Source: an uncultured Alphaproteobacteria bacterium
GTDB taxonomy: Bacteria; Pseudomonadota; Alphaproteobacteria; Caulobacterales; Hyphomonadaceae
Assembly: GCA_903831255.1 (NCBI GenBank)
Contig: CAIKWZ010000058.1
Location: 1 to 48,638, forward strand
Direction of reading: 5' to 3'
Length of the DNA: 48,638 nucleotides
Each line of letters begins with the position of its first letter. Positions within the stretch are counted from its first letter, which is position 1. The position numbers and the translations under genes were made by a program. Below are positions 6,278-48,638 of this stretch, one piece after another. The notes under the pieces are model-generated. The model saw only the letters and a program-made list of their open reading frames with translations, did not search any database and was not told where the DNA came from.

Positions 6278-6292
6278 CAAACCCCTCCGACT

Positions 6293-7633: not shown

Positions 7634-7687
7634 GGGCGTCTCCTTCGAAGGCGATCCGCGCGGGAAAGAACAAACAAACAAATGGGC

Positions 7688-10309
7688 TCATGTCGACGCC
7701 CCCGGGGCGAGTGCGCGGCTGACGACATCTCGGAGCGCCGGAGACAGGTCGGGAACAAGAGCCATGATCTCAAGCTCCGCCGTCATCAGCGTCCGTCTCC
7801 CCGCATCAAAGCGCCGCCAGTTCATGATCTGAGGCATGAGCCACCTGACGCCCTGAGGGCGCACGCGATCCAGAGCCAGAACGGTCTCGCGCAACAATCT
7901 GTACCCCGACCCGTCCGCCTCATGAAAGCCGATGCGATTTTGACGGAAAAACCCTCCGAACAGAGCCATCGCGAGAGGCGCATTGGCCATGCTGAAGTCG
8001 TCAGTGGCTGCAAGTCTCGCAACACGACCCGCCGCACCCGGCTGCCGCGAGAGCGCCTGAGCGCGAAACCAGATCCGCATCACACTGTCGACACCCTTCC
8101 ATCGGGCCTTAAAACCCTCCAGCGCCTCATCGCATTCAGGAGAGGTGGTGTTGCAGAGAGAATAGAGGGCGGCGCTTCGGGCGGTCATTCCCGGAGCATG
8201 AAGCGCCTCCTGGCAGGCGATACGTCGGAGCGGGGCCTCATCCAGCTCCAGAAGGTAGTCGAGACAGGTCGCGCGCAGACGCCGCGCTCCCCTGGCATCA
8301 GGGGTCATGTCCACACGACCCGCAGGATCGCAGTCATGAAAGACCGAAAGGAGATCGTCACGGTATCGGGCCGCGAACGCCCGACGCAGCGCCTCCGATC
8401 CGACAGCAAGACCGTCGATATCGATTTCCGGACAGGGATCTCCAATCAGACCGACATGCGGAAAGCCCAGAAGCTCCGCGCGAAGAGATCGGTCCGTACG
8501 GGTATCCGTCAGAACACGCCCCATCGCCGATATAAGGTTCTCAAACCCGGGAGAGGCGTTTGCCTCACGCCGGGCAGCGGCGAATTTGCGAACCGCCTCC
8601 CCCATAAGTTCCTGCCCGGCGTCCCACCGTGAGAACCCGTCTGGATCATGAGCGAAGAGCAGAAGCAGGTCCGCTTCACTCCGGTCGACATCAACACCGA
8701 CCGGCGCTGAAAATCCTCGATTGCAGGAAAGCACAGGTCGCTCATCGACCCCTTCGAACTCGAAGGTTTCTTCAAAATTTCGCAGCTCAAGGAGCCCCTC
8801 ACGCGCCTGTCCCCTCGCGCGCGCCCGGACTTCCGTTCCATCCAGCCTAAGAAGGCCGACGCGAAGGGGAATATGAAGAGGCTGTTCGTCCGATCCCTCC
8901 TGGCGGACGGACACACGAAAGACGCGTGTCCTGGGATCATGCGCCGTCCTGACCCGAAGGCGCGGCTGCCCAGGGCGTTCATACCAGCGCAGAAACTGAC
9001 TGAGATCGACCCCCGACGCGACGCTCAGGGCGGAAAGGAGATCGCCGATCGTCACCGCCTGTCCGTCGTGCCGATCAAAGTAGAGATCCATACCCCGCCG
9101 GAACGCCTCGCCTCCAAGCAGCGCATGCAGCATGCGCACCAGTTCAGCGCCCTTGTCGTAGACAGTGGCCGTGTAGAGATTGGATACGGAGTTATAGGCC
9201 CGGGGCTGCACGGGGTGAGCGGCCGGCCCCGAATCCTCCGGAAACTGATTGGTGCGCAGATTGCGGACCGTTGTGATCCTTTTGACGTCCGGCGCCGACA
9301 TGGCGGCGGAAAACTGCTGATCCCGAAACCGGGTCAGCCCCTCCTTGAGACTGAGCTGGAACCAGTCACGCACCGTGACCCGGTTTCCTGTCCAGTTATG
9401 GAAATACTCGTGACCTGCGATACGTTCGACCAGATCAAAATCTTCGTCGGTCGAGGTCTCCGCGTCGGCAAACGCATAGGTGGCCTCGAGATACATGAGT
9501 CCCTTGTTTTCCTGCGCAATGGCATGACGTTCCGGCACAACGACGTTGAAAACCGGGGTGTCGCAAACCCGGCCGTAGACGTCCTCGTCCCAGGCCATCG
9601 CACGAGAGAGCGCACCCAGCAGGAACTCACAGCGGCCGATATTGGCTCGTCCCGCATAGACGACGATATCGGTGGCGTATCCTGAGGAAAAAACATGTCG
9701 GGCGCTGGTCGACGCCCAATCCCCGGCCGCGATCGCAAATATGTAGCAGGGCTTCGGCGTTTCATCACGCCACAGGGCGTAGTGCCGGTCAGCCCCGACA
9801 TCACCCGTCTCGACGCAGATTCCATTCGAGAGAAGAACCGGGAACTGCGAGCGTGCCCCCTCAAGGCGCACACTGTAGCAAGCCAGAACATCCGGACGAT
9901 CCTGAAAGAAAGTGAGACGCCTCATCCCATCGGCTTCCATGTGGGATAAAATGGCCTCTCCCTCCATGAACAGGCCAATAGACGCAGTATTTTTCCGGGG
10001 AGAGACGAGGCTCACCACCTCCAGGTCGACAACATCGGACACGGGATAAAGCCGGATGCCCGCTTCCGTCCGCTCGACTGCGGAAGGAGCGACCTCTTCC
10101 CCATCAAGCCGGATCGAGACGACTTCGAAGTCCCGGCCATCGAGGTCAAGAACACAACCCTTGCGGACGCCAGGACGCCGGCGAAAGCGCTGCCGGCACG
10201 TGATGCGGGTTCGCGACGCGTCAAGGTCAAACAGGAACGAGACCTCCTCCGTCAGAAAATCTGGAGGACGATAATCGCTCAATCGCACCCGGCCTGACCC
10301 GTCGGCCAT
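7688..10309 (-). CDS. M1-family zinc aminopeptidase (PepN-like) with altered GAMEN motif
   Basis: An 873-residue relative of aminopeptidase N. The start at 10309 fits the PepN N-terminus (YRPPDF, FLFDLDA); an upstream ATG at 10378 would place the operator inside the leader. HEYFH (300-304) plus Glu323 in LKEGLT form the HExxH-18-E zinc site, and PDVLACYSV and the NWTGNR region match PepN. The substrate-recognition motif GAMEN is changed to IAQEN (264-268), preceded by Ala where E. coli PepN has Met260. The glutamate that holds the free amino group is retained. There is no signal peptide, so it is cytoplasmic. It heads the five-gene leftward operon and has a regional operator copy 78 bp upstream. 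Its role is inferred to be N-terminal trimming of unusual peptides. Confidence 0.92.
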   Translation of the reverse strand: MADGSGRVRLSDYRPPDFLTEEVSFLFDLDASRTRITCRQRFRRRPGVRKGCVLDLDGRDFEVVSIRLDGEEVAPSAVERTEAGIRLYPVSDVVDLEVVSLVSPRKNTASIGLFMEGEAILSHMEADGMRRLTFFQDRPDVLACYSVRLEGARSQFPVLLSNGICVETGDVGADRHYALWRDETPKPCYIFAIAAGDWASTSARHVFSSGYATDIVVYAGRANIGRCEFLLGALSRAMAWDEDVYGRVCDTPVFNVVVPERHAIAQENKGLMYLEATYAFADAETSTDEDFDLVERIAGHEYFHNWTGNRVTVRDWFQLSLKEGLTRFRDQQFSAAMSAPDVKRITTVRNLRTNQFPEDSGPAAHPVQPRAYNSVSNLYTATVYDKGAELVRMLHALLGGEAFRRGMDLYFDRHDGQAVTIGDLLSALSVASGVDLSQFLRWYERPGQPRLRVRTAHDPRTRVFRVSVRQEGSDEQPLHIPLRVGLLRLDGTEVRARARGQAREGLLELRNFEETFEFEGVDERPVLSCNRGFSAPVGVDVDRSEADLLLLFAHDPDGFSRWDAGQELMGEAVRKFAAARREANASPGFENLISAMGRVLTDTRTDRSLRAELLGFPHVGLIGDPCPEIDIDGLAVGSEALRRAFAARYRDDLLSVFHDCDPAGRVDMTPDARGARRLRATCLDYLLELDEAPLRRIACQEALHAPGMTARSAALYSLCNTTSPECDEALEGFKARWKGVDSVMRIWFRAQALSRQPGAAGRVARLAATDDFSMANAPLAMALFGGFFRQNRIGFHEADGSGYRLLRETVLALDRVRPQGVRWLMPQIMNWRRFDAGRRTLMTAELEIMALVPDLSPALRDVVSRALAPGAST

Positions 10310-10387
10310 CAATTCCGCTCCCGATACGGCTCCTGTTCGGGACCGCCCGGGCGCAGCACGGCCGAGCAGATCTCGCATTCCGGAACA

Positions 10388-10408
10388 GATATGATCACTG
10401 CATATATT
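10388..10408 (-). promoter_or_regulatory. 21-bp operator-like site, M1 peptidase operon
   Basis: Contains ATATG-n7-CATAT on the plus strand and, on the minus strand, the conserved core TGATCATAT shared with the other regional sites. It lies 78 bp upstream of the M1 peptidase start, a suitable place for a repressor site. It is one of eight aligned copies, probably bound by the TetR protein encoded at 20570-21244 (inference). Confidence 0.6.
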
Positions 10409-10591
10409 CTCGCGTCGGCGTCAAGCCGCATGCTTAGTCTCCGCTGTCGACCACAGACTAAAGTGTCCGCCACGGGTGGGAAATCTCCTGAACGGAGTGA
10501 AGACAAGGATTGACCCATGATCTTGAGGGACTGAAAGGAAGGGACGCTCCTGCCCCCCAGGGCGCAGGATTGACGCCCCGGAGCCGACCAA

Positions 10592-10612
10592 AATATAAAC
10601 ACTGATCACATT
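10592..10612 (+). promoter_or_regulatory. 21-bp operator-like site, P1 peptidase gene
   Basis: The plus strand reads AATATAAAC, two bases, then TGATCACATT. It matches the near-perfect palindrome at 19421-19441 at 16 of 21 positions. It lies 45 bp upstream of the P1 peptidase ATG. The 200 bp between this site and the one at 10388-10408 contain no gene. Confidence 0.62.
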
Positions 10613-10656
10613 TAAAGGGCTGGCGATCCGTCGGCCTCAGGCAAGACAGGTCAGAC

Positions 10657-11814
10657 ATGAACCCTCACCACCGGCACACGCCTTCGGGAAAGCTGCGGGC
10701 CCGCGGCGCGGGGGTTCCCCTGACCGGGACGCCGGGACAATGGAACGCCATCACGGATGTGCCGGGCGTGGAGGTCGGCTACACAACCCTGATCAAAGGC
10801 GAAGGGCCTCTGGTGATCGGCGAGGGTCCGGTTCGAACCGGCGTGACGGCGATCCTTCCTCGGGGGCTGGCGGGAGCGACGGACGGAGTGTTTTCCGGGG
10901 CCTTTTCACTCAACGGAAATGGAGAAGCCACCGGCCTTCACTGGATCGAGGAGACAGGACGTCTCGACGGGCCGATCACCATCAGCAACACCCATGCGGT
11001 AGGAACGCTTCATTCAGCGGTCATCAAATGGCTGAACGGGCGCAAAGACAGCGAGAAGCTCGACGGCAACACGTTCTGGATGCCGGTCGCTGCAGAGACC
11101 TGCGACAACTGGCTCAACGATATGAACGGGTTTCACGTGCGCGAAGAGCATGTGCACGAGGCGATCGACAGCGCACGATCCGGGCCGGTCGAAGAAGGAA
11201 GCTGCGGCGGAGGGACGGGTATGTCCTGTTACCAGTTCAAAGGGGGATCGGGGACAGCTTCCCGCAAGGTACGGGTAGCCGGTCGAACTTACACAGTCGG
11301 CGCGTTTGTTCAGACCAATTTCGGCGTCCGCAAGCTCTGCACAATCGGCGGGGTCCCGATAGGCCGCTACATTCCCTACAGCGGGGGCCAGATCCATCGC
11401 TATCTCATGGATCATCCGACCGATCAGGGATCCATCATCATCGTCGTGGCGACAGATGCGCCCCTGTCTCCGCTCCAGCTGAAGCGTCTGGCCCGACGCG
11501 CGGGCATCGGCATGGCGAGGTCAGGGGGCATCGCCTCAAATGAATCGGGTGACATCTTCATCGCCTTCTCGACCGCCAACCTCGACGCCTATCGCCGGGT
11601 TTATGAGGTGGGACCAATGGAGAGCTATGGCGAGTTCATGATGACCCCGATGATGGAGGCCACCGTGGAATCCGTCGACGAAGCCATTCTGAACGCACTG
11701 TTCACCGGAGGGGACATGACCGGCCGGGATGGGAATGTCCGGGACGGCCTGCCGGTGGACAAAGTGATTGGCTACCTCAAGCATCACAACATGTGGGTCG
11801 ACCCCGAGGCCTGA
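10657..11814 (+). CDS. P1-family (DmpA/BapA-like) aminopeptidase, self-cleaving Ntn-type hydrolase
   Basis: A 385-residue member of peptidase family P1. Characterised relatives are the D-/L-aminopeptidase DmpA and the beta-peptidyl aminopeptidases (BapA type). ITDVPGVEVGYTT (31-43) is the usual N-terminal signature, and VQTNFG (218-223) carries the Asn of the oxyanion hole. DQGSIIIVVATDAPL (256-270) contains the expected autoproteolysis site Gly258-Ser259, whose serine becomes the N-terminal nucleophile of the small subunit. SGDIFIAFSTAN follows. There is no signal peptide. These enzymes release N-terminal D- or beta-residues that ordinary aminopeptidases cannot. The specificity of this one cannot be read from sequence alone. 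A regional operator copy precedes it. Confidence 0.92.
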   Translation: MNPHHRHTPSGKLRARGAGVPLTGTPGQWNAITDVPGVEVGYTTLIKGEGPLVIGEGPVRTGVTAILPRGLAGATDGVFSGAFSLNGNGEATGLHWIEETGRLDGPITISNTHAVGTLHSAVIKWLNGRKDSEKLDGNTFWMPVAAETCDNWLNDMNGFHVREEHVHEAIDSARSGPVEEGSCGGGTGMSCYQFKGGSGTASRKVRVAGRTYTVGAFVQTNFGVRKLCTIGGVPIGRYIPYSGGQIHRYLMDHPTDQGSIIIVVATDAPLSPLQLKRLARRAGIGMARSGGIASNESGDIFIAFSTANLDAYRRVYEVGPMESYGEFMMTPMMEATVESVDEAILNALFTGGDMTGRDGNVRDGLPVDKVIGYLKHHNMWVDPEA

Positions 11815-11833
11815 GTCGACCTGAGCAGGCCAG

Positions 11834-11849
11834 GCATGATCGATCATGC
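11834..11849. other. 16-bp perfect palindrome at a convergent gene junction
   Basis: GCATGATCGATCATGC overlaps the stop of the EthD-like gene and sits 20 bp past the P1 peptidase stop. It could form a short hairpin in either transcript, but no U-tract follows on either strand, so it is at best a weak terminator. It might also be a protein site. Confidence 0.35.
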
Positions 11850-12161
11850 GGGCTCAGGCGTCACCTCATGCTCGGTCACGAACAGCCGGTCCCGGCGGCT
11901 GACCATGGACAGACTGTCAGCCGCGACAGCCTGCCCATGGGGCTCGGCGTAGGCTGCGAGAAAATCCGCCTCGGTATCGAACCAGAGCTCGGACGCGCCG
12001 TCATAAGGCGCGTTCTCGTCTGATGCGATATTGATGGTCATTCGCCTGAGGCCCTTCAGACGGCGAGCAAGAGGCCGGTGCGTCTCGAGCCACCAGTGAG
12101 TGAAGTCCGCCTTTGACAGCCCTTCGCGCCGCTTCAGAAGAATGATCGCCTTGAACGCCAT
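11844..12161 (-). CDS. EthD domain protein
   Basis: A 105-residue protein of the EthD (dimeric alpha/beta barrel) family. AIILLKRREGLSKADFTHWWLETHRPLA is the family signature, with F.xWW.xxHxP, and ELWFDTEADFLAAY follows. GGAGGG lies just upstream of the ATG at 12161. It is divergent from the aminotransferase at 12285, with one operator copy between them. Relatives include small ring-modifying and dehydratase-like enzymes and proteins of unknown role beside oxidative catabolic genes. The function here is unknown, but it is probably co-regulated with the peptide catabolic genes. Confidence 0.82.
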   Translation of the reverse strand: MAFKAIILLKRREGLSKADFTHWWLETHRPLARRLKGLRRMTINIASDENAPYDGASELWFDTEADFLAAYAEPHGQAVAADSLSMVSRRDRLFVTEHEVTPEPA

Positions 12162-12210
12162 ATCGTCCCTCCGGAATGACCTGCGGACAACGGACGCCGC
12201 AGGGACCTAT

Positions 12211-12231
12211 TATGTGATCATCCGTCATATT
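12211..12231 (-). promoter_or_regulatory. 21-bp operator-like site, divergent EthD / aminotransferase promoter
   Basis: TATGTGA-n7-TCATATT. It lies almost midway between the two divergent starts (50 bp to 12161 and 53 bp to 12285), so one bound repressor could control both. It matches the site at 19421 at 16 of 21 positions and the site at 16094 at 18 of 21. Confidence 0.65.
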
Positions 12232-12284
12232 GACGAGCCCGGCGCAACACCATCTTGTGGATCCATCAGCTTCGGAGCCGACAC

Positions 12285-13595
12285 GTGAGAAACGATCTCG
12301 ACGCCTATTGGATGCCCTTCACGCCCAACAAGGCCTTCAAGAGCGCCCCGCGCATGGTCGCAGCCTCGGAGGGGCAATTCTACATCATGTCTGACGGCCG
12401 TCGCATTCGCGACGGCTTCTGCGGCATGTGGTGCTCCCTCCTGGGACACAACCACCCGAAGGTGACGGAGGCGATCGTCGACCAGGCGCGACGTCTCGAC
12501 TACTCCCCGGCCTTCAATTTCGGACACGAAGGCGCGTTCCGGCTGGCGGACACGATTTCGAAGCTCTGGCCCGGAGAACTGGATCACGTGTTCTTCACCA
12601 ACTCCGGGTCCGAAGCGGTGGATACGGCCCTCAAGATGGCTCTCGCCTACCATCGGCTTCGGGGCGAAGGCTCACGCACCAGACTGATCGGACGCGTCCT
12701 CGGCTATCACGGAGTAGGATTTGGGGGCATCTCCGTAGGCGGGATGGTCAACAATCGGAAGATGTTCGGCGGCCTTCTGGGCGGCGTCGACCACATGCCC
12801 CTCCCCTACAATCCGGCCGCAGACGCCTTCACCCGAGGCCAGGCGAAAACGGACCCGATGCTCTATCTCAAAGAGCTCGAACAGATCATCGCCCTTCATG
12901 ATCCCTCGACCATCGCCGCAGTGATCGTCGAGGGTTTTTCCGGATCCTCCGGTGTGTTTATCCCGCCGCAGGGTTATCTCCAGAAACTAAGGGAGATCAC
13001 AAAGCGAAACGGCATCCTGCTTATCCTTGACGAGGTCATCACCGGCTTCGGGCGTCTCGGCGCTCCCAATGCGGCCACCTTCTTCGGCGTCGAGCCGGAC
13101 CTGTGCACGATCGCCAAGGGCATGAACAATGCAGCCGTTCCGATGGGAGGGGTCGTTGTCTCCCGCACCATTTATGACACCTTCATGCAGGGCGTACCCG
13201 CGGGCGTCGAGTTCTTTCACGGCTACACTTATTCCGCTCATCCCCTGGCGGTCGCTGCGGGCAATGCGGCTCAGGACGTGTTTCGGGAAGAGGGCGTCTT
13301 TGACAATGTCGCGAGCCTGACAGCGGGCTTCGAGGACGCCCTGCACGACCTCAAGGGTCTTCCCTACGTGACGGACATCCGAAACATCGGCCTCGCTGGC
13401 GGGATTACGCTCGAAACACGGCCAGGAGCGCCAGGAGCGCGCGGTTACGAGCTGTTCCTGCGCGCGTTCGAAGAAGGGGTCGCCATCCGGAACAACGGAG
13501 ACACAATCGCCATTGCGCCTATTCTCACCAGCAGACCGGAAGACATCGAGGCGATCTTTGCTGGCGTGAAAAAGGCCTTCGCAAAGCTGACCTGA
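12285..13595 (+). CDS. Omega-amino acid:pyruvate aminotransferase (beta-alanine:pyruvate type)
   Basis: A 436-residue class III aminotransferase. WMPFTPNKAFKSAPRM near the N-terminus, GMWCSLLGHNHPKV and NSGSEAVDTALKMA are typical of omega-APT enzymes, which move the amino group of beta-alanine or other omega-amino compounds to pyruvate. Asp249 (LDEV) holds the PLP ring and Lys278 (IAKGMNNAAVPMGG) forms the Schiff base. The GTG start at 12285 has CGGAGCC upstream; a TTG further left is less likely. A second aminotransferase of a different subgroup lies at 6293-7633, so the region has two enzymes suited to non-alpha-amino groups. A regional operator copy is 53 bp upstream. It ends 206 bp before the convergent TonB receptor stop. 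Confidence 0.92.
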   Translation: MRNDLDAYWMPFTPNKAFKSAPRMVAASEGQFYIMSDGRRIRDGFCGMWCSLLGHNHPKVTEAIVDQARRLDYSPAFNFGHEGAFRLADTISKLWPGELDHVFFTNSGSEAVDTALKMALAYHRLRGEGSRTRLIGRVLGYHGVGFGGISVGGMVNNRKMFGGLLGGVDHMPLPYNPAADAFTRGQAKTDPMLYLKELEQIIALHDPSTIAAVIVEGFSGSSGVFIPPQGYLQKLREITKRNGILLILDEVITGFGRLGAPNAATFFGVEPDLCTIAKGMNNAAVPMGGVVVSRTIYDTFMQGVPAGVEFFHGYTYSAHPLAVAAGNAAQDVFREEGVFDNVASLTAGFEDALHDLKGLPYVTDIRNIGLAGGITLETRPGAPGARGYELFLRAFEEGVAIRNNGDTIAIAPILTSRPEDIEAIFAGVKKAFAKLT

Positions 13596-13701
13596 CCAAA
13601 TCCGTCCCCGAGACCTGCCGTCCGCTTCCCAACCTACGGCTCACGACTTGCGGGCCGGCATAACATCTGTGCGTCCTGTGACGCCGTCTCATCAAAAACA
13701 A

Positions 13702-13727
13702 GGAGGCGCGTCCGATAACGCGCCTCC
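13702..13727 (-). terminator. Rho-independent terminator
   Basis: A 10-bp perfect stem (GGAGGCGCGT / ACGCGCCTCC) with a 6-base loop. On the minus strand it is followed by TTGTTTTT, so it terminates the TonB receptor transcript 75 bp after its stop. It may also slow the convergent aminotransferase transcript. Confidence 0.85.
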
Positions 13728-13801
13728 TCATATTCACCGTGGATCGCAGGAAGGCCCGCGTCGCTCCCGGATGGCAGCGACGCGAACAGACCTCGTCCTG
13801 A

Positions 13802-16045
13802 TCAGAAGCGCTGAGTGATGTCGACGCCCCAGGTCTGCCCCTCGGAGGTGTTGGTTCCGCGGTTATAGAACCAGAACTGCGAGATGTGTTCATCCAGCAG
13901 ATTACGAACATAGGCGGTGATCCGCGTCCCACCGTTCGTCTCCACACCCGCTCGCAGGTCGATCTTGGTCATCGTATCGTAAGGGTCGACCACGTAATAA
14001 TCGCCAAGGATGCCGCCGCTTTCATACCGGATGGATGCCCCTCCCACGAAGGTGAGGGCGTCGTTGATCGGCGCGTCAACATCGAACTGAGCGTTCGCCG
14101 TCCATTCGCGCGTATAAGGGATCAGCTTGCCGCTCAGAACCTGTTCGGACGGCTTGCCCCGATTGGCGACAGCGTCGTCAAACTTCGGATCAAGCCAGCC
14201 GACGCTGACCGCACCGGTCAGCCAGCTGGTCGGGCGGAAGAAGGTCTCGATCTCGATGCCCGACGTGTTCGCAGTTCCGACATTGTCGAGATAGGTGCGA
14301 TCAACGCCCCCGAGGGACGTCTGCATCGCAAGGAGCAGATCCTCCTGCCGCATCATGAACGCAGCGATGTTGGCGTCGAGACGACCATCAAAGAAGCTAC
14401 CCTTGAGACCCACTTCGTAGTTGGTCGCCGTCTCCTGACCGTAAGGAATGGTCTGAACGGTTGTCGGAGAAAGGTTGAAGGCCCCGGGACGGAAGCCCGT
14501 ACCATAGGAGGCGTAGGCATTCACGCTGTCCGAGAGACGGAAGCGCGCCGTGAGACTGGGCGACCAGTTGTCGAACTCGCTCTCAGACGCGAACACATAG
14601 GTCGGATAGGGTCCCGCAAGCAGGGTCGCAAAAAAGGAATCCAGCGCCGTGTTTCCCGTGCCCGTCGGAAGAACGCCCTGGGAGTAATCGAGAGACTTTG
14701 TGTCCTGCGAGTAACGCAGGCTGGCGCTGAGGCTTAATGCGTCAGACACATCGTAGTTGGCGGTCGCGAAGGCCGAAAGCGTCTCGGTCTCTACGGTTGT
14801 TCCAGCTTTTGGAAAACCGATGAGCGCCGTCTGGATGCCGTATGAAGGCGTATTGCGACGCGACTTGATCGTGCGTGCGAAATTGAACTCCTCGTTGAAG
14901 TAAGAGACGCCAAGCAACCATGTCAGAGGCTTGTCATCAGCGGAAGCGTAGAGCGCCTCGAGGAAGTAGTCCTTGGTGCCCTCATCCCGGACGATGTCTG
15001 TCTGCCTGGCGACGGACGAAGACTGCGGCCCGATAGAGGTCTGGTCGGAGTCCTGAATGGAATTGAAACCATAGTCCTTGTAGCTCGCATTGAATGTCAG
15101 TTCGCCGCTATCCAGCTTGTAGTTGATGACCTGCGAGGCATAGAGCTCCGTGATATCGGCATCAGACCGGGTGTCGCGGCGGATCCGGTCCACAGTTTCA
15201 GGCGTGGACATGGCGCCGAAATTTGAAATGCCCAGAGGCGCATAGGTACGCATGGACGGGCCTTCCCACTCGCGGCTTTCAAGCGTCCAGAGCACGCTCA
15301 GACGATCGGAGAGGTCGACCTTGTAGCCCGCCCGAACACCGCGGTCTGAAAACTGACCGACAAACTCATTGAGCGTCTCGTTGAAAAGCTCGCTCTCAGT
15401 CTGATTGAAAGACCAGCCGGTAAGCCTCAGCGCGCCGGTATCCCCGACTGCAAGATTGACAGCGCCCTGCACTTCCGTCCTCTTATAGGAACCATAAGAG
15501 GCCTTGGCGTATCCGCCACCGTCACGCGAAGGCGTCGCATAGATGATATCGACGGTCCCGCCGACCGAACTGCGCCCGTAAAGACCGCCCTGCGGACCAC
15601 GCAGCACCTCTATGCGCTCAACGTCCACCTGAGAGCCGAGATTAGCTCTGTGCCCACCCATGTAGAGACCGTTCCGGTAGAGGCCGACATTGGGCTCCGC
15701 CTGGACATCGACGATTCTCATGCCACGAATGTTGACGAAGGTGTTGAAGCTCTCCGGATTGTCCTGAATAACCGCGTTGGGAATGAGGGCTACAACATCC
15801 TGAAGGTCGCTCACGCCATTGGCGAGAAGATCATCGCCCGAGATCGCAGTGACTGTTACCGGAACGTCCTGCAGATCAGCAGAACGCCGGGTCGCCGTAA
15901 CGACAACCGTCTCACGCTCCGATCCAGCAGCGGGCGCGGCGGTGGCGCCGGCCTGCTGGGCAACGGCTTGCCCGGCTGGCAGCATGACGGCAATCGCCGT
16001 TGCGGACATCAGCATCCGCGAAAGAACGCCTGAATTCCTCGTCAT
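13802..16045 (-). CDS. TonB-dependent outer-membrane receptor
   Basis: 747 residues. The start at 16045 (MTRNSGV) follows GGAGAGGAAG and begins a signal peptide ending AVAQQ; an ORF start at 16111 would overlap an operator copy. VVVTATRR is the TonB-box-proximal start of the plug. DVPVTVTAISGDDL, NIRGMR and VEVLRGPQGGLYGRSSVGGTVDI are plug signatures. A long beta-barrel follows and ends on the terminal aromatic residue of outer-membrane proteins (DITQRF). It is the likely outer-membrane entry for the substrate of this region; that substrate is not identifiable. Two tandem operator copies lie upstream and a strong terminator downstream. Confidence 0.95.
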   Translation of the reverse strand: MTRNSGVLSRMLMSATAIAVMLPAGQAVAQQAGATAAPAAGSERETVVVTATRRSADLQDVPVTVTAISGDDLLANGVSDLQDVVALIPNAVIQDNPESFNTFVNIRGMRIVDVQAEPNVGLYRNGLYMGGHRANLGSQVDVERIEVLRGPQGGLYGRSSVGGTVDIIYATPSRDGGGYAKASYGSYKRTEVQGAVNLAVGDTGALRLTGWSFNQTESELFNETLNEFVGQFSDRGVRAGYKVDLSDRLSVLWTLESREWEGPSMRTYAPLGISNFGAMSTPETVDRIRRDTRSDADITELYASQVINYKLDSGELTFNASYKDYGFNSIQDSDQTSIGPQSSSVARQTDIVRDEGTKDYFLEALYASADDKPLTWLLGVSYFNEEFNFARTIKSRRNTPSYGIQTALIGFPKAGTTVETETLSAFATANYDVSDALSLSASLRYSQDTKSLDYSQGVLPTGTGNTALDSFFATLLAGPYPTYVFASESEFDNWSPSLTARFRLSDSVNAYASYGTGFRPGAFNLSPTTVQTIPYGQETATNYEVGLKGSFFDGRLDANIAAFMMRQEDLLLAMQTSLGGVDRTYLDNVGTANTSGIEIETFFRPTSWLTGAVSVGWLDPKFDDAVANRGKPSEQVLSGKLIPYTREWTANAQFDVDAPINDALTFVGGASIRYESGGILGDYYVVDPYDTMTKIDLRAGVETNGGTRITAYVRNLLDEHISQFWFYNRGTNTSEGQTWGVDITQRF

Positions 16046-16093
16046 TGACTTCCTCTCCCCTGAACGATGCATCGGAGCGGCTGTCCCAGAAAA

Positions 16094-16114
16094 AATATGA
16101 CCGATGCTCACATC
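16094..16114 (+). promoter_or_regulatory. 21-bp operator-like site, TonB receptor, proximal copy
   Basis: AATATGA-n7-TCACATC, 48 bp upstream of the TonB receptor start. It is 18 of 21 identical to the reverse strand of the site at 12211-12231. Its centre is 25 bp from that of the next copy. Confidence 0.55.
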
Positions 16115-16118
16115 AGAC

Positions 16119-16139
16119 GTTATGAGCAGTGTTCACATT
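16119..16139 (-). promoter_or_regulatory. 21-bp operator-like site, TonB receptor, distal copy
   Basis: GTTATGA-n7-TCACATT, 15 of 21 matching the site at 19421. With the copy at 16094 it makes the only tandem pair in the window, which suggests tighter or cooperative control of the receptor gene. Confidence 0.58.
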
Positions 16140-16324
16140 GTCAACAGTGTCAACATTCATTTGACGAGGGGCGTGTCAAAGACGCATCAGCTGGCGCAGA
16201 TCGCTGCGTCGGCGCCCGGATCCGCGCAGATTGTCGATCGCCCCGGCCCCAAAGAGGATCAGGAGATCGGAACGCCAATGCAGGAGGCCGTCAATCGCCC
16301 CATTAGCTCGGCCGGGCTTGCCGA

Positions 16325-16345
16325 CATATATGCATTGCTTATATT
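16325..16345 (+). promoter_or_regulatory. 21-bp operator-like site, amidase gene
   Basis: CATATATGC, a four-base spacer, then CTTATATT; 16 of 21 identical to the site at 10388. It lies 111 bp upstream of the amidase start, a rather long distance, and is the weaker of the half-sites. The rest of 16140-16456 holds no gene I can support. Confidence 0.5.
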
Positions 16346-16456
16346 GACCGGACCGAACGATCGCGCCGTTGCATCGCGACGGAAAGTCGTCATCCTCCAG
16401 TCGGCCAGAGGTTTTTCTTGCCGCACCGAACGGGGCCTGGGACAGGGAGCCAATCC

Positions 16457-17875
16457 GTGAAGCTGACCGCTACCGCCATCGCCGACGCCGTACGCGCCTC
16501 CCGGATGTCTGCGAAAGAGGCCCTCGATCAGGCGTTTCAAAGGCTCGATGCGCTTAATGGTCCGATCAACGCATTTGTCCGAACGGACAGAGAGCAGGCT
16601 GAGACTGCGGCCTCCGAGATCGACGCGCGCATCGCGCGGGGAGAGGATCCGGGAATACTCGCCGGCGTGCCGATCGGAGTGAAGGATCTCGAAGCCTGCA
16701 GGGGCTTCCCCCTGACCCAGGGCAGCGTGTTCCTGAAGGATGCTTTGCCTGAGACATCAGACAGCCGACATGTCGCGCGTCTTCGCTCAGCCGGAGCGGT
16801 CATAATCGGGATCACGGCATCCGCCGAGTTCGGCATGGATTCGGCCACCAATACACTGCTTTACGGCGTCACCCGAAATCCATGGGACCCAGCGACAACG
16901 CCAGGGGGATCAAGCGGTGGATCATCAGCCGCGGTCGCAGCAGGCATCGTGCCGCTGGCGACAGGAACGGATGCCGGAGGATCCATCCGGGCGCCGGCGG
17001 CGTTCACCGGCATCGTCGGCCACAAGCCCAGCCATGGCCGGATTCCAAAGATGAACGGCTTTTCGAACTGGGGGGTGCACGGGGCCCTTGCCGCAAATGT
17101 CGCCGACGCAGCTCGTCATCTGGATGCCGTATCCGGACCCGACGACGGCGATCGACAGTCACTTCCGGACCCGGGTTACCGATACGAAGATGTCATCGAA
17201 ACGCTCGATGTCTCGGGACTGAAGGCAGTCTGGTCTCCCGATTATGGATATGCAGCAGTCGAACACGAGGTCGTCGAGATCGCCTACGCGGCGGCGCGGC
17301 GATTAATGGAGGCCGCGAAGCTGATAAGGTGTGAGGCGGACTTCCATCCGGTCAACATCTACCCGCACTGGGGCGCGATCTTCGGATCAACGCTCGAGGA
17401 GGACTTCACAAAAGCCGGTTACCTGCCCGACGGCTATGACAAGCTCTCCAAATCCGTCCGTCGGGTTATCGACCGCGTCCGGGCGCGACGCGCTCAGGGA
17501 GCGATCGACGTCCAGGCGTCCTGGGCACAGGTTCACCGCCTGGAGCAGCAGGTAGCCGACTTCTTCAGAAGCTATGATCTGGTCATGTCGCCGGCCGTTT
17601 CGTGCCGGGCATACGGCGCGGAAGACAGCCCACCGTCAGTGATCGAAGGCAAGGACGCCTCGATGGGAGGAGCTGAGCCCTTCGGCATGCTCGCCAACGC
17701 GTGCTGGAATCCTTCGATCTCAATTCCGGCAGGCTTCACATCAGACGGCCTTCCGGTTGGTCTCCAGATCGTTGCGAAGCGTCACCGCGACGACATTTGT
17801 CTGAGACTGGCGCGCATCATGGAACGGACCCACCCATGGCCCTACCTACCCGACGTCCGGGGCCTGGGACTCTGA
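16457..17875 (+). CDS. Amidase-signature family amidase
   Basis: A 472-residue amidase of the Ser-cisSer-Lys class, cleaving a carboxamide or amide bond. The GTG start at 16457 has GGGAGC six bases upstream. Lys76 lies in GVPIGVKDLEAC, the serine pair at 152-153 in TPGGSSGGSSAAVA, and the nucleophile Ser176 in TDAGGSIRAPAAF. The last part, NPSISIPAGFTSDGLPVGLQI, is also diagnostic. It is not GatA, as there is no gatC/gatB neighbour. There is no export signal. In this setting it is probably a hydrolase for an amide group of the imported compound (inference). Confidence 0.92.
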   Translation: MKLTATAIADAVRASRMSAKEALDQAFQRLDALNGPINAFVRTDREQAETAASEIDARIARGEDPGILAGVPIGVKDLEACRGFPLTQGSVFLKDALPETSDSRHVARLRSAGAVIIGITASAEFGMDSATNTLLYGVTRNPWDPATTPGGSSGGSSAAVAAGIVPLATGTDAGGSIRAPAAFTGIVGHKPSHGRIPKMNGFSNWGVHGALAANVADAARHLDAVSGPDDGDRQSLPDPGYRYEDVIETLDVSGLKAVWSPDYGYAAVEHEVVEIAYAAARRLMEAAKLIRCEADFHPVNIYPHWGAIFGSTLEEDFTKAGYLPDGYDKLSKSVRRVIDRVRARRAQGAIDVQASWAQVHRLEQQVADFFRSYDLVMSPAVSCRAYGAEDSPPSVIEGKDASMGGAEPFGMLANACWNPSISIPAGFTSDGLPVGLQIVAKRHRDDICLRLARIMERTHPWPYLPDVRGLGL

Positions 17876-17885
17876 CCGGGAAAAT

Positions 17886-17904
17886 CGCCTGGAGAACCCA
17901 GGCG
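17886..17904 (-). terminator. Possible terminator between amidase and serine hydrolase
   Basis: A 7-bp stem (CGCCTGG / CCAGGCG) with a 5-base loop. On the minus strand ATTTTCC follows, which suits the end of the leftward serine hydrolase transcript. The U-tract is short, so efficiency is uncertain. Confidence 0.5.
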
Positions 17905-17969
17905 CCGTCCCCCGTCCCGGAGCGTAGGCTGCGGGATTGACGCGGCGCCTGACGAAGCCTGCATCTCCC

Positions 17970-19388
17970 TCAGGATGACGTTTCGCGGATCGCGCGCAGA
18001 ATTTCGACCCCGCCCTCGGCCCACGCCGTGAGCTCGACGGCCTGACCGGACGCGTCATACGTCACCGCAGACTCGCTTGCGGTCTGTTGCGTGAAAAAGC
18101 GACCATTCTGACCCATGTAAATAGGTCGGGGGGGAAGGATCAGCCCCTCAATAAACGAATGCAGCTGGCCGTCCTCGCTCCAGATATCGATATGCGGGGC
18201 GCTTATGCCCGATACGATTCGATAACGCCCCACATACCGATGATGCTCCTCGGGGGGTACGATCTGAATGATCTTCGGGTCCTTGAAGAAAGACGACCAC
18301 TGATAGGCCCTGGCGACCCCGTTGATGATCTCCGAATACAGAATGATGCCCATCAATGAATTGGTGAGAACGACAGCGCCCTTGCCCTGCTCGAGCAGGC
18401 AGGTCGTGTTGCACTGAAAGCCCTCATTGGACCCGCCATGACCGAAGCGGGCGCCTGGCCCCTCCCCGAACAGCTCCCAGCCAAGCGCAAACTGCCCGGG
18501 GTCCTGACGTGTGAGCATGGTTCGGGCCGCAGCCTGGCTCATAAGGGCGTTAGGCTTCCCCAGCCAGGCATTGCGCATTTCCACCATGAAGCGGGCGTAA
18601 TCAGGCGCTGTTGTATAGACGCCGCCTGCGGCCTGCTGTGGCGTGTGGGTGAAGCGGGTCTTGATCAGGCCCCCGCTCTTGTCGTGACCGGATGCCGTGT
18701 GGCCATGGAACGCCTCAGGGAGGGGCTGACGAAAAGTGGACCTCGTCATCCCGAGGGGGCTGAAAATTCTCTGTTCGGCTAGGTCGGCGAACTCAAGGCC
18801 GGTCTGTTCCTCGAGAAGCAGCTGAACAATCTGCGTGCCTCCGCCGGAATAGCGCACCGATCCCCCAGGAACCTTATCGACAACCACGGCAGGCGTCAGG
18901 GATGGCGGACGTCCGAGCAGCGTATCCATATTGCTCGGCGGCGTCTGCCCGGCGGGAAACGCCCCGAAACCGTGCACCGTCGTCCCCCCCTTGTGACAAA
19001 GAAGGTGACGAAGCGTGACCGGGACCTCTTTCGTGAAGGCGTTGTCGGGCAGCTTCCAGGACGTCAGATAGTCGTTCACAGGCTGATCCAGGCCGATACG
19101 CCCCTGGTCGACCAGCTGCATGGCGAGAACAGCGGCCAGAGGCTTGCTGATCGACGCGCCCGCGAACATCGTGTCGGCCGCCACAGCCTCGCCGCGACCA
19201 GCGTCCTTCAGTCCGAAACCGCCAGCGTCCGCAACTTCGCCTCCGTCGATGACGGCGATCGCAACACCCGGACAGTTATACTCCCTCAGGCGATCAGCGA
19301 TCGGCCAGCTGACCTCCTGGCCTGCGACCGGATTGACCGGGAGGACATGCGCGACAGCCTCCTCCAGACGACTGACAACTCGGACCAT
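17970..19388 (-). CDS. S12 beta-lactamase-fold serine hydrolase
   Basis: 472 residues. The S-x-x-K nucleophile motif is SISK (Ser79-Lys82). The Tyr motif is YSG (Tyr180), where most family members have Y-x-N, and HGGSNEGF is the third active-site element. The C-terminal ~130 residues form a small beta domain (RYVGRYRI) as in other S12 esterases and peptidases. The start has CAGGGAGC upstream. No signal peptide is visible, so it is not a normal exported penicillin-binding protein or lactamase. S12 members include D-aminopeptidases, D-esterases and MlrB-type linear peptide hydrolases. It is divergent from a second S12 gene, with a shared operator between them. Confidence 0.87.
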   Translation of the reverse strand: MVRVVSRLEEAVAHVLPVNPVAGQEVSWPIADRLREYNCPGVAIAVIDGGEVADAGGFGLKDAGRGEAVAADTMFAGASISKPLAAVLAMQLVDQGRIGLDQPVNDYLTSWKLPDNAFTKEVPVTLRHLLCHKGGTTVHGFGAFPAGQTPPSNMDTLLGRPPSLTPAVVVDKVPGGSVRYSGGGTQIVQLLLEEQTGLEFADLAEQRIFSPLGMTRSTFRQPLPEAFHGHTASGHDKSGGLIKTRFTHTPQQAAGGVYTTAPDYARFMVEMRNAWLGKPNALMSQAAARTMLTRQDPGQFALGWELFGEGPGARFGHGGSNEGFQCNTTCLLEQGKGAVVLTNSLMGIILYSEIINGVARAYQWSSFFKDPKIIQIVPPEEHHRYVGRYRIVSGISAPHIDIWSEDGQLHSFIEGLILPPRPIYMGQNGRFFTQQTASESAVTYDASGQAVELTAWAEGGVEILRAIRETSS

Positions 19389-19420
19389 GATCGCTCCCTG
19401 AGGCTTGTTGGGAGCGAGAT

Positions 19421-19441
19421 TATATGATCAGCGTTCATATA
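19421..19441. promoter_or_regulatory. Near-perfect 21-bp operator between two S12 genes
   Basis: TATATGA-n7-TCATATA, a perfect inverted repeat with 7-bp arms. It is 32 bp from the leftward start and 34 bp from the rightward start, so it can block both promoters. It is the best palindrome among the eight copies and serves as the reference sequence. Confidence 0.72.
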
Positions 19442-19475
19442 CAAGAGAGCGGGCGATCTGAAGACCCGAGGCAGA

Positions 19476-20573
19476 ATGATCATGGGCGAAGAGTTTCAGC
19501 GCACACTGGACGACGTCATGGAGCGCGGCCTCAGGGAGCACTCGGTTCCTGGTGCGGCCATCGCCCTGATCGAAGGCGGCCGCCCGGTCTTCACAGGGTG
19601 CTGGGGAGACCGGGACCGCGAGCGCTCCGCACCGGTGGGACCCGATACGCTCTTTGCGCTTCAGTCGATCTCGAAATCCTTCACCGCCATCGCCGTCATG
19701 ATGCTGGTGGAGGACGGACATCTTGATCTTGACGATCCGGTGGAGCGCCATCTCCGGCGCTGGCGACTTCCGCCGTCGGACTACCCGCATGCCGAAGTGA
19801 CCGTGCGACGCCTCCTCGGCCATCATGCAGGCGCATCCTCAGCCGGTTTTCCGGGGATTGCAGAAGGATACGAGACCATCAGTCTGATCGACGGCCTCAA
19901 CGGGATCATCAGTCCGTTCACTGAAGAGCAGGAGACCTACTGGAGCGAGTGGAGCCTGGACCGGGACTGGCCAGTCCGCATCACATCCAGCCCCGGCGAA
20001 GGCTGGCGATACTCAAACGGCGGCTTCGGAATACTTCAGATCATGATCGAGGACCTGTCAGGCCAGACCTTCGAATCCTTCGTTGGAAAAAGGATTTTTG
20101 AACCTCTCGGCATGACCAGATCGACCTTCTTTCCCTTCGAAGACACGGATCTGGCGGAGCCCTACGGGCCTGAGGGAAAGCGCCGACGGCGATATCGAAC
20201 GCTCTGCGCCGCAGCGGGGGGAGTTTACGCCGGCATCAAGGACCTTGCGGCCTTCGCCTGCGCCGAAATCAATCTTCCGACGGGACATGGCCTCCTGTCA
20301 GCACCAGCCGCAGCCGAACTGTGGCGGCCCATCGGTCTGGCCGATCAAAGCGGAGACATTCAGTTCGAGGCCGCCCTCGGACACCTGAGCTACCGGAAGG
20401 CAGGGCGGCTCAATATTCATCATTCCGGCGGAACGATAGGCTGGCGAAGCATCTACTCGGTATTTCCGGAAACCGGGGACGGGTTCTGCATGGTCATGAA
20501 CTCCGACCAGGCCAATCCATTCTGGATTCCGCTCATTCGACGCTGGCGCGAACAGGTGTTCGCCGAAGGCTAG
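19476..20573 (+). CDS. S12 beta-lactamase-fold serine hydrolase
   Basis: 365 residues with SISK (Ser64-Lys67), YSNGGFG for the Tyr-x-Asn motif and HHSGGTIGW for the third element. All three canonical S12 elements are present, unlike in its divergent neighbour. It has no signal peptide and no C-terminal extension. It starts at 19476 or at the second Met, 6 bp later. The stop codon overlaps that of the convergent TetR gene on the palindrome CTAG. The likely activity is hydrolysis of a D-peptide, amide or ester bond in the cytoplasm; the exact substrate is unknown. Confidence 0.87.
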   Translation: MIMGEEFQRTLDDVMERGLREHSVPGAAIALIEGGRPVFTGCWGDRDRERSAPVGPDTLFALQSISKSFTAIAVMMLVEDGHLDLDDPVERHLRRWRLPPSDYPHAEVTVRRLLGHHAGASSAGFPGIAEGYETISLIDGLNGIISPFTEEQETYWSEWSLDRDWPVRITSSPGEGWRYSNGGFGILQIMIEDLSGQTFESFVGKRIFEPLGMTRSTFFPFEDTDLAEPYGPEGKRRRRYRTLCAAAGGVYAGIKDLAAFACAEINLPTGHGLLSAPAAAELWRPIGLADQSGDIQFEAALGHLSYRKAGRLNIHHSGGTIGWRSIYSVFPETGDGFCMVMNSDQANPFWIPLIRRWREQVFAEG

Positions 20574-21244
20574 CCGCCGATCCCCCTGATGACCTGACGT
20601 GTCAGGTCTTCAACGAAACGCCGCCTCTCCGCACGGGTTCCTGAAGCATTGGCGATCAGACCCTGAGCATAGCCGCGCGCGAGACCGTAGATGAAGGAAA
20701 AGAACGCATAGGCCGCCTTACAGGCTTCATGAGAGTGCTCAAGATCATCGGGACGGTAAAGATCCTCACCGTGAACAATCTGAACGAGAACCCTGAAGCT
20801 GTCGTCCGCCTGAGAGACGTAATGCGGATGGGACGACACATCCCCAAGCTGCCCGAACATCAGACGAAACAGTTCCGGTTCCGAGCAAGCAAACTCAACG
20901 AGATTCTGCGCCAGCTGGACCAGCATATCTTCACGAGCGCCGCCCCTCTTCAGAAGTCGGCGATTCTCCGCAGCCCTGGAGGCGAAACCTTCTGCCGCCA
21001 CATCGAGAAACAGTTGCTCCAGACTATCGAAATGATTGTAGAAATTAGCCGACGAAACGCCGACTTCCCGACACAGACGACGGGCGGTGATCGCCTCAAC
21101 CGTCTCCGTCTCAAGGAGACGGCGGGCTGCAGCCACAAGGCTCGCCTTGACATTACCCTTGTGATACGGCCCCTCCCCCGCACGATCGCGCAGGCGTCGC
21201 CCGGGGGCGATCTCTATCACCTTGCCTGACGCGGAACTCGTCAT
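20570..21244 (-). CDS. TetR-family transcriptional regulator
   Basis: 224 residues. The N-terminal helix-turn-helix is ARRLLETETVEAITARRLCREVG (about 40-62), continuing as VSSANFYNHFDSLEQLF, the standard TetR recognition-helix region. The C-terminal ~150 residues form a variable helical ligand and dimer domain. It is the only regulator gene in the accessory region and sits among the transcription units that carry the 21-bp palindrome. It is the natural candidate for the protein that binds them and is released by a pathway metabolite. One operator copy lies 186 bp upstream, in the gap shared with the MFS gene. It converges on the S12 gene with a 4-bp stop overlap. Confidence 0.93.
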   Translation of the reverse strand: MTSSASGKVIEIAPGRRLRDRAGEGPYHKGNVKASLVAAARRLLETETVEAITARRLCREVGVSSANFYNHFDSLEQLFLDVAAEGFASRAAENRRLLKRGGAREDMLVQLAQNLVEFACSEPELFRLMFGQLGDVSSHPHYVSQADDSFRVLVQIVHGEDLYRPDDLEHSHEACKAAYAFFSFIYGLARGYAQGLIANASGTRAERRRFVEDLTRQVIRGIGG

Positions 21245-21430
21245 AGGTCCGTCTCCGTTGGGCGCCCGCCAGCAATCCCTCGTGGGATCGTCCGGCCTTC
21301 CCCATCCATCGCCATAACAGGTGGATAGAGTGTTTCGCTTAGCGCGAAAATGGGATGGCGCAAGGTCGCCCCCCCATTTTCCCCGCCAGACGCCGGCGCT
21401 CAGCCTGCGGTCTTGCCATCCGACCGGATG

Positions 21431-21451
21431 AATGTGATCAATGATAACCTC
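21431..21451 (-). promoter_or_regulatory. 21-bp operator-like site, TetR / MFS gap
   Basis: One half, AATGTGATCA, is strong and the other is degenerate; the best alignment with the site at 10592 is 15 of 21. It lies 52 bp before the MFS start. It may give weaker control of the transporter, or also serve the regulator's own promoter. Confidence 0.48.
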
Positions 21452-21503
21452 AGGTCAGGATCGGCTTCAGATCGACCGACCCGGGATTTCGGGAGACCGC
21501 ACC

Positions 21504-22919
21504 ATGACCGAACCGGCCGGCGCCGCACGGGCGCAAGACAATCAACCGCGCGCTCTCAGCACAGCGCAAAGGTTTGCATTCGGCTTTCCCAGCCTTCCTC
21601 ACGCTCTGGTCGCCTATCCGGTCTACTCCCTCCTTCCGGCTTTCTACGCGGCGAACACCAGCGTGACCCTTGCCCAGATCGGGGCCATCGCCGCCGCGAG
21701 CCGCATCTTCGACGCCGTAAACGATCCGATCATCGGATACCTCTCCGATCGCACCAGGACACGCTGGGGGAGCCGGAAACCGTGGTTCATCATCGCCATT
21801 CTGTTTCTGGCAGGAGGAATCATCCCTCTTTTCAACCCGCCCCCTGAAGCGACCATCGTCTACTTCGCCATCTGGTCGACCGTCCTCTACACCGGCTTCA
21901 CCATGTTTGAAGTGCCCCGAAGCGCGTGGATGACCGAGACCACTCGCGACTACATGGAGCGATCGCGCATCGGCACCATGGTAGGCTGGTTCAATATCTG
22001 CGGAAGCCTTGTCGTTTACCTGCTGCCGATCGGAATGTCCTTCTTCACGGGATCCTCGGCGATCGGACCCGACACAATGAAGGGCATCGTCTTTCTTTAT
22101 CTGATCATCATGCCCATCGGCATGATCACTGCCGTAACAGTCGTCCCGAAAGGAGTTGTGGTCGCCCGCCAGAAAGTCGACATCAGAGGCATCTGGAAGA
22201 CCATCACCTCCTGTAAGCCTCTGATGCGGTTTTATCTCATCACGATCCTCTGGGGCCTGGGCCAGGGATCCTTCATCGGGACCTCCTTTATCTTTCAGAC
22301 CGAATACATGGGATTTAAGGAACAGATCCCGTATATCATGATCACCTTCTTTGCTTCGGGTGTGATGTTCATGCCCGTCTGGTCGAAGATCCTCATCACC
22401 GCAGACAGACATCGTGTCTGGGGATCCTTCGTCCTTCTCTCGACTGCGATGGGATTCATCACTCTGCTGCTTCCCAGGGGACCAGAGGCATTCATTCCCG
22501 TTGTTCTCCTCGCAGTCGTCCGCGGGTTCTTCGGAACGCCTCAGAACTTCCTGCCCGGGGCGGTCCTCTCGGATGTCATCGACTACGACACCATGAAATC
22601 CGGATCGAGCAAGGCAGGCAATCTGTTCGCCGTCCAGATGCTTCTGATCAAGATAACGATGGCGATCAGCGGAGCGCTCGCCTTTTTCATCCTCGATGTA
22701 TCAGGGTTCAGGATGGGACAGCCCGCCACCCCGATGGGCGATCTGGGTCTGATTACAGCCTATCTCGGCTTCCCCTTCCTGATGCATCTGGCGATGGCCG
22801 CGCTGTGCTGGAATTTTCCGATCAATCGGGAGCGGCACAGGATCATCCAGAAGCGCCTTGAACGTAGGGCGTTGCGAGCCAAGCGAGACGAACTGGCGGC
22901 CGCCGCTGTCCCAGGATAG
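21504..22919 (+). CDS. MFS transporter of the glycoside-pentoside-hexuronide (GPH/MelB-like) group
   Basis: 471 residues with about twelve hydrophobic segments. The start at 21504 (MTEPAG) follows CGGGAGA; an ATG at 21441 overlaps the operator. DAVNDPIIGYLSDRTRTRWGSRKPW after the second membrane segment is the GPH signature, and WMTETTRDYMERSRI is also typical. Members are cation symporters for sugars and other small solutes. It is the probable inner-membrane step after the TonB receptor. The cupin and lipoprotein genes follow on the same strand at 122 and 105 bp and may be co-transcribed. Confidence 0.92.
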   Translation: MTEPAGAARAQDNQPRALSTAQRFAFGFPSLPHALVAYPVYSLLPAFYAANTSVTLAQIGAIAAASRIFDAVNDPIIGYLSDRTRTRWGSRKPWFIIAILFLAGGIIPLFNPPPEATIVYFAIWSTVLYTGFTMFEVPRSAWMTETTRDYMERSRIGTMVGWFNICGSLVVYLLPIGMSFFTGSSAIGPDTMKGIVFLYLIIMPIGMITAVTVVPKGVVVARQKVDIRGIWKTITSCKPLMRFYLITILWGLGQGSFIGTSFIFQTEYMGFKEQIPYIMITFFASGVMFMPVWSKILITADRHRVWGSFVLLSTAMGFITLLLPRGPEAFIPVVLLAVVRGFFGTPQNFLPGAVLSDVIDYDTMKSGSSKAGNLFAVQMLLIKITMAISGALAFFILDVSGFRMGQPATPMGDLGLITAYLGFPFLMHLAMAALCWNFPINRERHRIIQKRLERRALRAKRDELAAAAVPG

Positions 22920-23479: not shown

Positions 23480-23584
23480 GGCTGGAGGGGCCCGGGCGCG
23501 CGCCAGTCACCGACGCGTTGATTGGCCGACATTGTTCGGCATGCTACAATCCGTCTCAGGCATTTTCATTCAACGGAGATGACG

Positions 23585-24658: not shown

Positions 24659-24679
24659 TCCCCCGAAGCAGTGCGGCGG

Positions 24680-25762: not shown

Positions 25763-25823
25763 GGCGTCGCTCCGAGGGGTCTGAAACTGTAGCCGACGGC
25801 GACCGGCCGTCTGCAGGAAGATG

Positions 25824-35589: not shown

Positions 35590-35684
35590 ACAGGGCATTG
35601 ACGGCGCCCCGGCCCTGCCCGCAGATGCGCGGTAACGGACGTAGCCGACGAGAGTCGCCTGGGTCCGGCCAATCGAACGACCCC

Positions 35685-48307: not shown

Positions 48308-48638
<331 letters not shown>

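Follow-up and report, generated by a model that had tools for sequence, protein, structure and literature searches.

A recurrent 21-bp palindrome before peptide- and amide-hydrolysis genes of a Hyphomonadaceae bacterium and its probable TetR-family regulator

Does a 21-bp palindrome that recurs eight times between positions 10388 and 21451 of a contig from an uncultured bacterium of the Hyphomonadaceae mark a single regulon, and is the TetR-family regulator encoded at 20570-21244 the protein that reads it? The stretch of DNA analysed here, called the window, comprises the 48,638 nucleotides of contig CAIKWZ010000058.1 (assembly GCA_903831255.1), and coordinates are window positions unless another contig is named. 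G000 denotes the window's own genome, G014 a sister genome and G652 the genome of another family. A sequence-only reading of this DNA had proposed that one repressor controls seven promoter regions. We consider it likely that this TetR represses a dispersed catabolic regulon whose substrates are peptides or amides containing beta-, D- or isopeptide-linked residues, and this interpretation is well supported by footprinting across the three genomes.

The eight 21-mers were found where the sequence-only reading had placed them, and they align without gaps. They fit one palindrome, AATRTRANCRNYGNTYAYATT, with a single central base and half-sites spaced by N7, and the copy at 19421 is indeed the perfect TATATGA-N7-TCATATA. 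The columns said to be uniform in all eight proved less so: A17 is present in every site, but TG at columns 12-13 is found in six and T15 and A19 in seven each. T3, T5, C9 and T20 are likewise invariant within the window. When columns were symmetrized over 18 sites from two genomes (eight in the window, three elsewhere in G000 and seven in G652, giving 36 half-sites), T5/A17 was conserved in 36, C9/G13 in 35, A2/T20 in 34 and T3/A19 in 33. Sites of the CRP/FNR type have the form TGTGA-N6-TCACA; that assignment was rejected because the spacing here is N7 and because the C9/G13 centre is conserved in 35 of the 36 half-sites.

A symmetrized matrix was built from the eight window sites, each of which was also scored with itself left out. 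Operator 1 (10388-10408; matrix score 26.2, leave-one-out score 24.4) lies before the pepN operon on the minus strand, and operator 2 (10592-10612; 28.8 and 27.1) before an S58 peptidase gene on the plus strand. Operator 3 (12211-12231; 22.4 and 19.8) is found between an EthD-family gene (minus) and an aptA-like gene (plus). Operators 4 (16094-16114; 24.2 and 22.4) and 5 (16119-16139; 24.0 and 21.8) stand in tandem before a TonB-dependent receptor gene on the minus strand, and a possible weak site at 16137-16157, scoring 13.9 here and 14.2 in G014, means that this promoter has two, perhaps three, tandem sites. Operator 6 (16325-16345; 24.0 and 19.9) precedes an amidase gene (plus), operator 7 (19421-19441; 25.9 and 22.6) separates two divergent S12 hydrolase genes, and operator 8 (21431-21451; 22.5 and 18.7) lies between tetR (minus) and an MFS permease gene (plus). 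The distance from site end to target start, previously put at 30-115 bp, measures about 32-111 bp. As regards autoregulation, 186 bp separate operator 8 from the start of tetR, that of the MFS gene being closer. Given the start codons chosen, all eight sites are wholly noncoding, in an interval of which 1556 of 11,194 bases (14%) are noncoding. The description of these gaps as AT-rich is wrong for the whole, their GC content being 59.6% (10310-21503) versus 61.5% for the entire window.

Could such repeats be an artefact of chance or of base composition? The eight sites have matrix scores of 22.4-28.8 and leave-one-out scores of 18.7-27.1, whereas first-order Markov sequence generated from window dinucleotides, 32 Mb in all, contained 13 places that reached 18 and none that reached 20. 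The next-best match within the window scores 13.9. What favours an artefact is the occurrence of the palindrome, when up to three mismatches are allowed, at 18 further places outside the window and contig C61; reading frames overlap no fewer than 14 of these. The 14 places that were scored gave 12.5-18.7, and all were overlapped by stop-to-stop frames of at least 90 residues, a weak sign of coding in GC-rich DNA. That search returned 27 matches on each strand versus two on each for the reversed pattern, a soft control, since the pattern's own composition differs. Conservation in the sister genome and recurrence in another family, described below, contradict chance, to which we assign almost no probability.

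Elsewhere in the genome, the pattern WRTRTRANCANNGNTYAYAT with at most two mismatches gave 13 forward and 14 reverse matches, versus one and one for the reversed pattern; 15 of these 27 correspond to the eight window sites, and the remaining 12 fall at 10 places. Three of the 10 places score 19.9-25.1 and are noncoding, the other seven reaching only 4.5-13.4. The three lie 57 bp before the alanine dehydrogenase gene ald (C61:15945; 25.1), 33 bp before a FAH-family gene followed by genes for an aldehyde dehydrogenase and a class I/II aminotransferase (C34:43140; 21.7), and 71 bp before an SDR gene (C43:221022; 19.9). When a sequence-only covariance-type model was taken to an E-value of 10 and 150 out of 384 candidates were scored, five of the eight window sites came back together with that of C61, at E-values of 0.1-6; our conclusions on the sites rest on the matrix and not on this model.

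Comparison with related genomes, suggested as a check on the proposal, bears it out. All eight sites are kept in G014 with scores of 19.2-26.7, the lowest being that of operator 6, the sister locus (L028, JAGWYJ010000027.1, from the metagenome-assembled genome REEB488) being taken as one record with G014 contig C18. Between the sisters 155 of 168 site positions are identical, versus 773 of 1060 other noncoding positions in the same five gaps (Fisher p 3.7e-9), and the ald and SDR sites outside the window are likewise kept.

More distant evidence came from a search for the S58 protein over the order, which found homologues in 27 of 398 genomes and a site of 26.2 near the closest of them, in G652; among 28 S58 loci scanned besides those of G000 and G014, a site above 13.6 was found only in that of G652. 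The 40-kb stretch concerned encodes a TetR that is 55% identical to that of the window and nearly unchanged in its helix-turn-helix (PF00440 21.7 bits, under the cut-off of 24; PF13305 unmatched). Fourteen of the 19 proposed regulon proteins have relatives there, in a different order and orientation, among them PepN, the GSAM-like aminotransferase, DgcA, the asparaginase, the S58 peptidase, AptA (70%), the receptor, the amidase, both S12 proteins, the TetR and the MFS permease. The SDR (55%) and the class I/II aminotransferase (63%), both remote in the window's genome, also belong to this locus; two window neighbours outside the proposed regulon were not found in it. The seven G652 sites score 22.3, 20.3, 16.4, 26.2, 24.5, 25.1 and 20.8 and lie in the gaps receptor/amidase, MFS/aminotransferase, S12a/AMP-binding ligase and class I/II aminotransferase/enoyl-CoA hydratase. 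Six reach at least 18, versus a mean of 0.032 and a maximum of 3 for 1000 symmetric column-permuted matrices. Six places outside the locus have best scores of 7.7-19.1, and further sites may exist there. Also within the locus are genes for an AMP-binding ligase, an enoyl-CoA hydratase and a thiolase (L153/L154, G652 C1:514433-519739), which may mean that the substrate has a fatty-acyl or beta-amino-acyl part.

Which protein would bind these sites? Pfam scans of 35 distinct window proteins gave a transcription-factor domain in just one, that encoded at 20570-21244 on the minus strand, as the claim of a single regulator nearby had implied. Both its N-terminal helix-turn-helix domain (PF00440, 35.2 bits, cut-off 24) and its C-terminal ligand domain (PF13305, 33.1 bits, cut-off 26.8) are recognized, and its N-terminal motif is YHKGN. 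This TetR is present in two of 101 relatives, own genome included, and of the 15 genus genomes only in G000 and G014; a sample of the class gave one genome in 385, its own, with at most seven candidates per genome scored, so that these absences are soft. Sites are distributed in the same way. With at most one mismatch, 12 strand-matches were counted in each of G000 and G014 (two control matches over all 15 genus genomes), and of the 13 TetR-less genomes four have one or two and nine have none. The G010 match turned out to be a tandem pair in front of a gene for a different TetR, taken up below. Twelve alanine dehydrogenase upstream regions of TetR-less genus genomes (57-58% identity) gave no match above 10.2.

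These distributions bear on the suggestion that another regulator, either a second TetR or a global one, binds the sites and that the adjacent TetR is a bystander. G000 does encode another PF13305 TetR (C41:62193), and cross-binding is conceivable given that TetRs of the same class can share an operator skeleton. The C41 protein, however, lacks the YHxG[ND] motif, and no site in its locus (L098) exceeds 6.4. Site clusters follow the window-type TetR in G000, G014 and G652. The 13 genus genomes that lack it have no such cluster, and most of them do encode other PF13305 TetRs. A bystander role is unlikely. Control of seven promoter regions by one TetR is favoured by the co-occurrence of TetR and sites, by the G652 locus and by the operators of same-class TetRs. 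The seven regions stand as proposed, but they underestimate the regulon, to which the three units on other contigs are added.

The same-class operators emerged from a survey of 30 loci out of 35 PF13305 matches in the genus. Five loci besides those of G000 and G014 encode a TetR with YHHGD (L106, L107, L118, L119 and L122), and each carries a pair of sites of the same 21-bp skeleton, the better of which (14.6-17.9) overlaps the likely start codon of the regulator gene, with the second just downstream; none of the 23 PF13305 loci without YHxG[ND] has a site above 11.7. Tandem 21-bp sites scoring 19.1 and 19.3 were also seen at 1501-1563 of locus L035 (G010 C136), before a different TetR gene with the N-terminal motif PYHHGN. 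The genes of these YHHG-type proteins have the C9/G13 and T5/A17 skeleton of the window sites before or over their own start, with half-sites that are mostly TGTTWAC rather than TATGATC; the proteins are 22-34% identical to the window TetR in local alignments, and their sites are known here only from their own promoters. The comparison suggests that YHxG-type TetRs may share a recognizable operator skeleton, which would help in assigning operators to other members of the class.

Repression is the mode of action that the promoter layout suggests. The promoter-like hexamers of the S58 gene (TTGACG-N18-TATAAA) and of the amidase gene (TTGCCG-N16-TATATT) have their -10 element inside operators 2 and 6, respectively, and operator 5 lies between those of the receptor gene (TTGACA-N16-TAACGT), an arrangement which suggests that they are placed as repression would need. 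Hexamers are weak at the remaining units. The TetR family includes some activators, and the fact that some sites lie away from recognizable hexamers would suit activation by this TetR, or a dual role for it, at some of them. We regard this as improbable in view of the sites that cover the -10 hexamers of S58 and amidase or fall between those of the receptor (comparisons made with no control), and of the five same-class TetRs in which a site overlaps the likely start codon of the regulator's own gene, as suits repression.

What, then, would the regulon serve? The pepN run on the minus strand encodes the M1 aminopeptidase PepN (7688-10309; TIGR02414 830.6 bits, cut-off 718.2; start chosen downstream of the longest-open-reading-frame start at 10378), a class III aminotransferase resembling GSAM and beta-aminotransferases (6293-7681; PF00202), a MaoC-like hydratase (5432-6280; PF01575 31.8 bits, cut-off 27), a DgcA or L-Ala-D/L-Glu epimerase-like protein (4446-5435; NF042940 351.9 bits, under the cut-off of 400) and an asparaginase-family protein (3463-4437; PF00710 171.2 bits). 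The best PDB match of the aminotransferase is 6k8h, followed by ForI, GSAMs and the beta-phenylalanine aminotransferase 4ao9. The gene behind operator 2 (10657-11814, plus; PF03576 356.3 bits) encodes a member of the S58 family of DmpA/BapA type, with five PDB matches at E-values up to 1e-5 (1b65, 2drh, 3n2w, 3n5i and 5tzb); DmpA (1b65) and BapA (3n2w), beta-peptidyl aminopeptidases of the same family, are nearest among solved structures. Flanking operator 3 are the EthD-family gene (11844-12161, minus; PF07110) and that of the AptA-type omega-aminotransferase (12285-13595, plus; NF052567 624.9 bits, cut-off 500), whose nearest structures (PDB 4uhm, 4b98) are omega-amino acid and beta-alanine:pyruvate transaminases. 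The remaining genes encode the TonB-dependent receptor (13802-16045, minus; PF00593, PF07715), the amidase (16457-17875, plus; PF01425 296.8 bits), two S12 hydrolases of beta-lactamase fold, a (17970-19388, minus) and b (19476-20573, plus), both matching PF00144, and the MFS permease (21504-22919, plus; PF13347 223.8 bits). The S12 proteins score 66.7 and 76.5 bits with the class C beta-lactamase model, far under its cut-off of 415, and are therefore not to be read as resistance genes.

The nylA-E set combines the amidase, S12, S58, omega-aminotransferase and aldehyde dehydrogenase families, and the same combination here, together with the presence of NylA (3a2p, 3a2q) among the PDB matches of the amidase, could mean that the TetR binds the sites in a regulon whose substrates are nylon-type (6-aminohexanoate) oligomers and not peptides containing beta- or D-residues. 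The individual proteins do not bear this out. All five PDB matches of the S58 protein are DmpA, BapA or D-aminopeptidase entries, none named NylC; the amidase is closer to other amidases than to NylA; no match named NylB is among the best 60 of 137 and the best 60 of 93 for the S12 proteins; and PepN, the DgcA-like protein and the asparaginase suggest that the substrates are peptides. The nylon-oligomer pathway was rejected on the ground that the family set fits but the nearest relatives do not, and its probability is small. PMC9235088 describes beta-alanyl peptides such as carnosine as substrates of DmpA and BapA, and a role for these enzymes in beta-peptide chemistry. Kinship with them, and the presence of an alanine dehydrogenase in the regulon, would suit substrates (peptides or amides) in which residues are beta-, D- or iso-linked, with pyruvate accepting the amino groups.

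The sequences show the sites with their statistics and placement, one type of site standing before several units of one pathway and conserved across genomes, together with its co-occurrence with this TetR and the shared gene set; binding, repression, inducer and substrate are inferred. The TetR, as a dimer or a pair of dimers, would bind the palindrome at promoters and repress them, in a regulon of at least 11 sites and ten promoter regions: the seven in the window and those of ald, of the FAH-family/aldehyde dehydrogenase/aminotransferase run and of the SDR gene elsewhere. A product of peptide breakdown would release it from its operators, switching on the outer-membrane receptor and the permease, the amide hydrolases (S58, two S12, amidase, PepN and asparaginase), and the epimerase and aminotransferases. 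Pyruvate would receive amino groups through the AptA-type enzyme, and the co-regulated alanine dehydrogenase would recycle the alanine. A more specific reading is possible but tentative, and we would put it at somewhat less than even: a regulon not described before, shared by two or more families of the order and devoted to one class of peptides or lipopeptides with beta- and D-amino acids. These would enter through a dedicated TonB receptor, be taken apart by S58, S12, amidase and PepN enzymes that form a matched set, and be processed to the end by aminotransferases together with CoA ligase, hydratase and thiolase (these three from G652), with the TetR sensing a breakdown product. As members of a regulon, genes with generic hydrolase annotations would become a single pathway that can be tested and whose switch is defined, the operator would mark remote genes (alanine dehydrogenase, SDR and the FAH-family/aldehyde dehydrogenase/aminotransferase run) as members, and the TetR would be a sensor usable for finding the substrate.

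Besides the second PF13305 TetR of the genome, several points weigh against a single-TetR regulon of this kind. The C34 site has no G014 counterpart for comparison, the G014 contig beginning inside the FAH-family gene. No relatives of MaoC, EthD, Ald, FAH or aldehyde dehydrogenase turned up in the 40-kb stretch of G652. The closest other relative of the TetR (L029; 44-46%) has different neighbours and no site above 8.4 in 18 kb; it was dropped as a clue to the substrate, on which it is uninformative. The covariance-type model, within its 150 scored candidates, did not return the sites at 12211, 16325 and 21431 or those of C34 and C43. The hexamer matches were picked with no control, the five YHHG TetRs look orthologous and hence are not five independent cases, and the substrate class is read from enzyme families.

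Systems of this kind, TetR catabolic regulons, are already known. PMC5343134 describes those of PsrA, FadP, LiuQ and RutR in Proteobacteria, in which, as in the window, one TetR has sites before several operons of one pathway and gene content varies between lineages. Those regulons serve fatty acids, branched-chain amino acids or pyrimidines, whereas the functions encoded in the window are hydrolysis of peptides or amides and transamination. The alphaproteobacterial TetR repressors BetI, BetI1 and BetI2 are similar in having palindromes at divergent and remote catabolic promoters and two boxes in one gap, according to PMC12442346; the BetI1 box, ATTGACG*CGTCAAT, differs from the window operator in sequence and centre, and the pathway is that of choline. 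Literature searches found no TetR regulon described around DmpA or BapA, and none of this gene content, as judged mostly from search listings.

Beyond the proposed regulon, the window holds two divergent sulfatase-family genes (363-1850 and 1962-3413), both under the NCBIfam cut-offs for arylsulfatase and choline-sulfatase. Neither of two open reading frames at 23522-25792 (plus), of 378 and 373 residues, was matched by a Pfam or NCBIfam model in these scans; the second overlaps a DUF2855 gene on the opposite strand. Tandem glycine riboswitch aptamers (RF00504, 55.3 and 38.5 bits) occupy 35677-35911 (plus), before gcvT at 35960. Finally, 5S and partial 23S rRNA genes at 48074-48638 (minus) probably explain where the contig stops.

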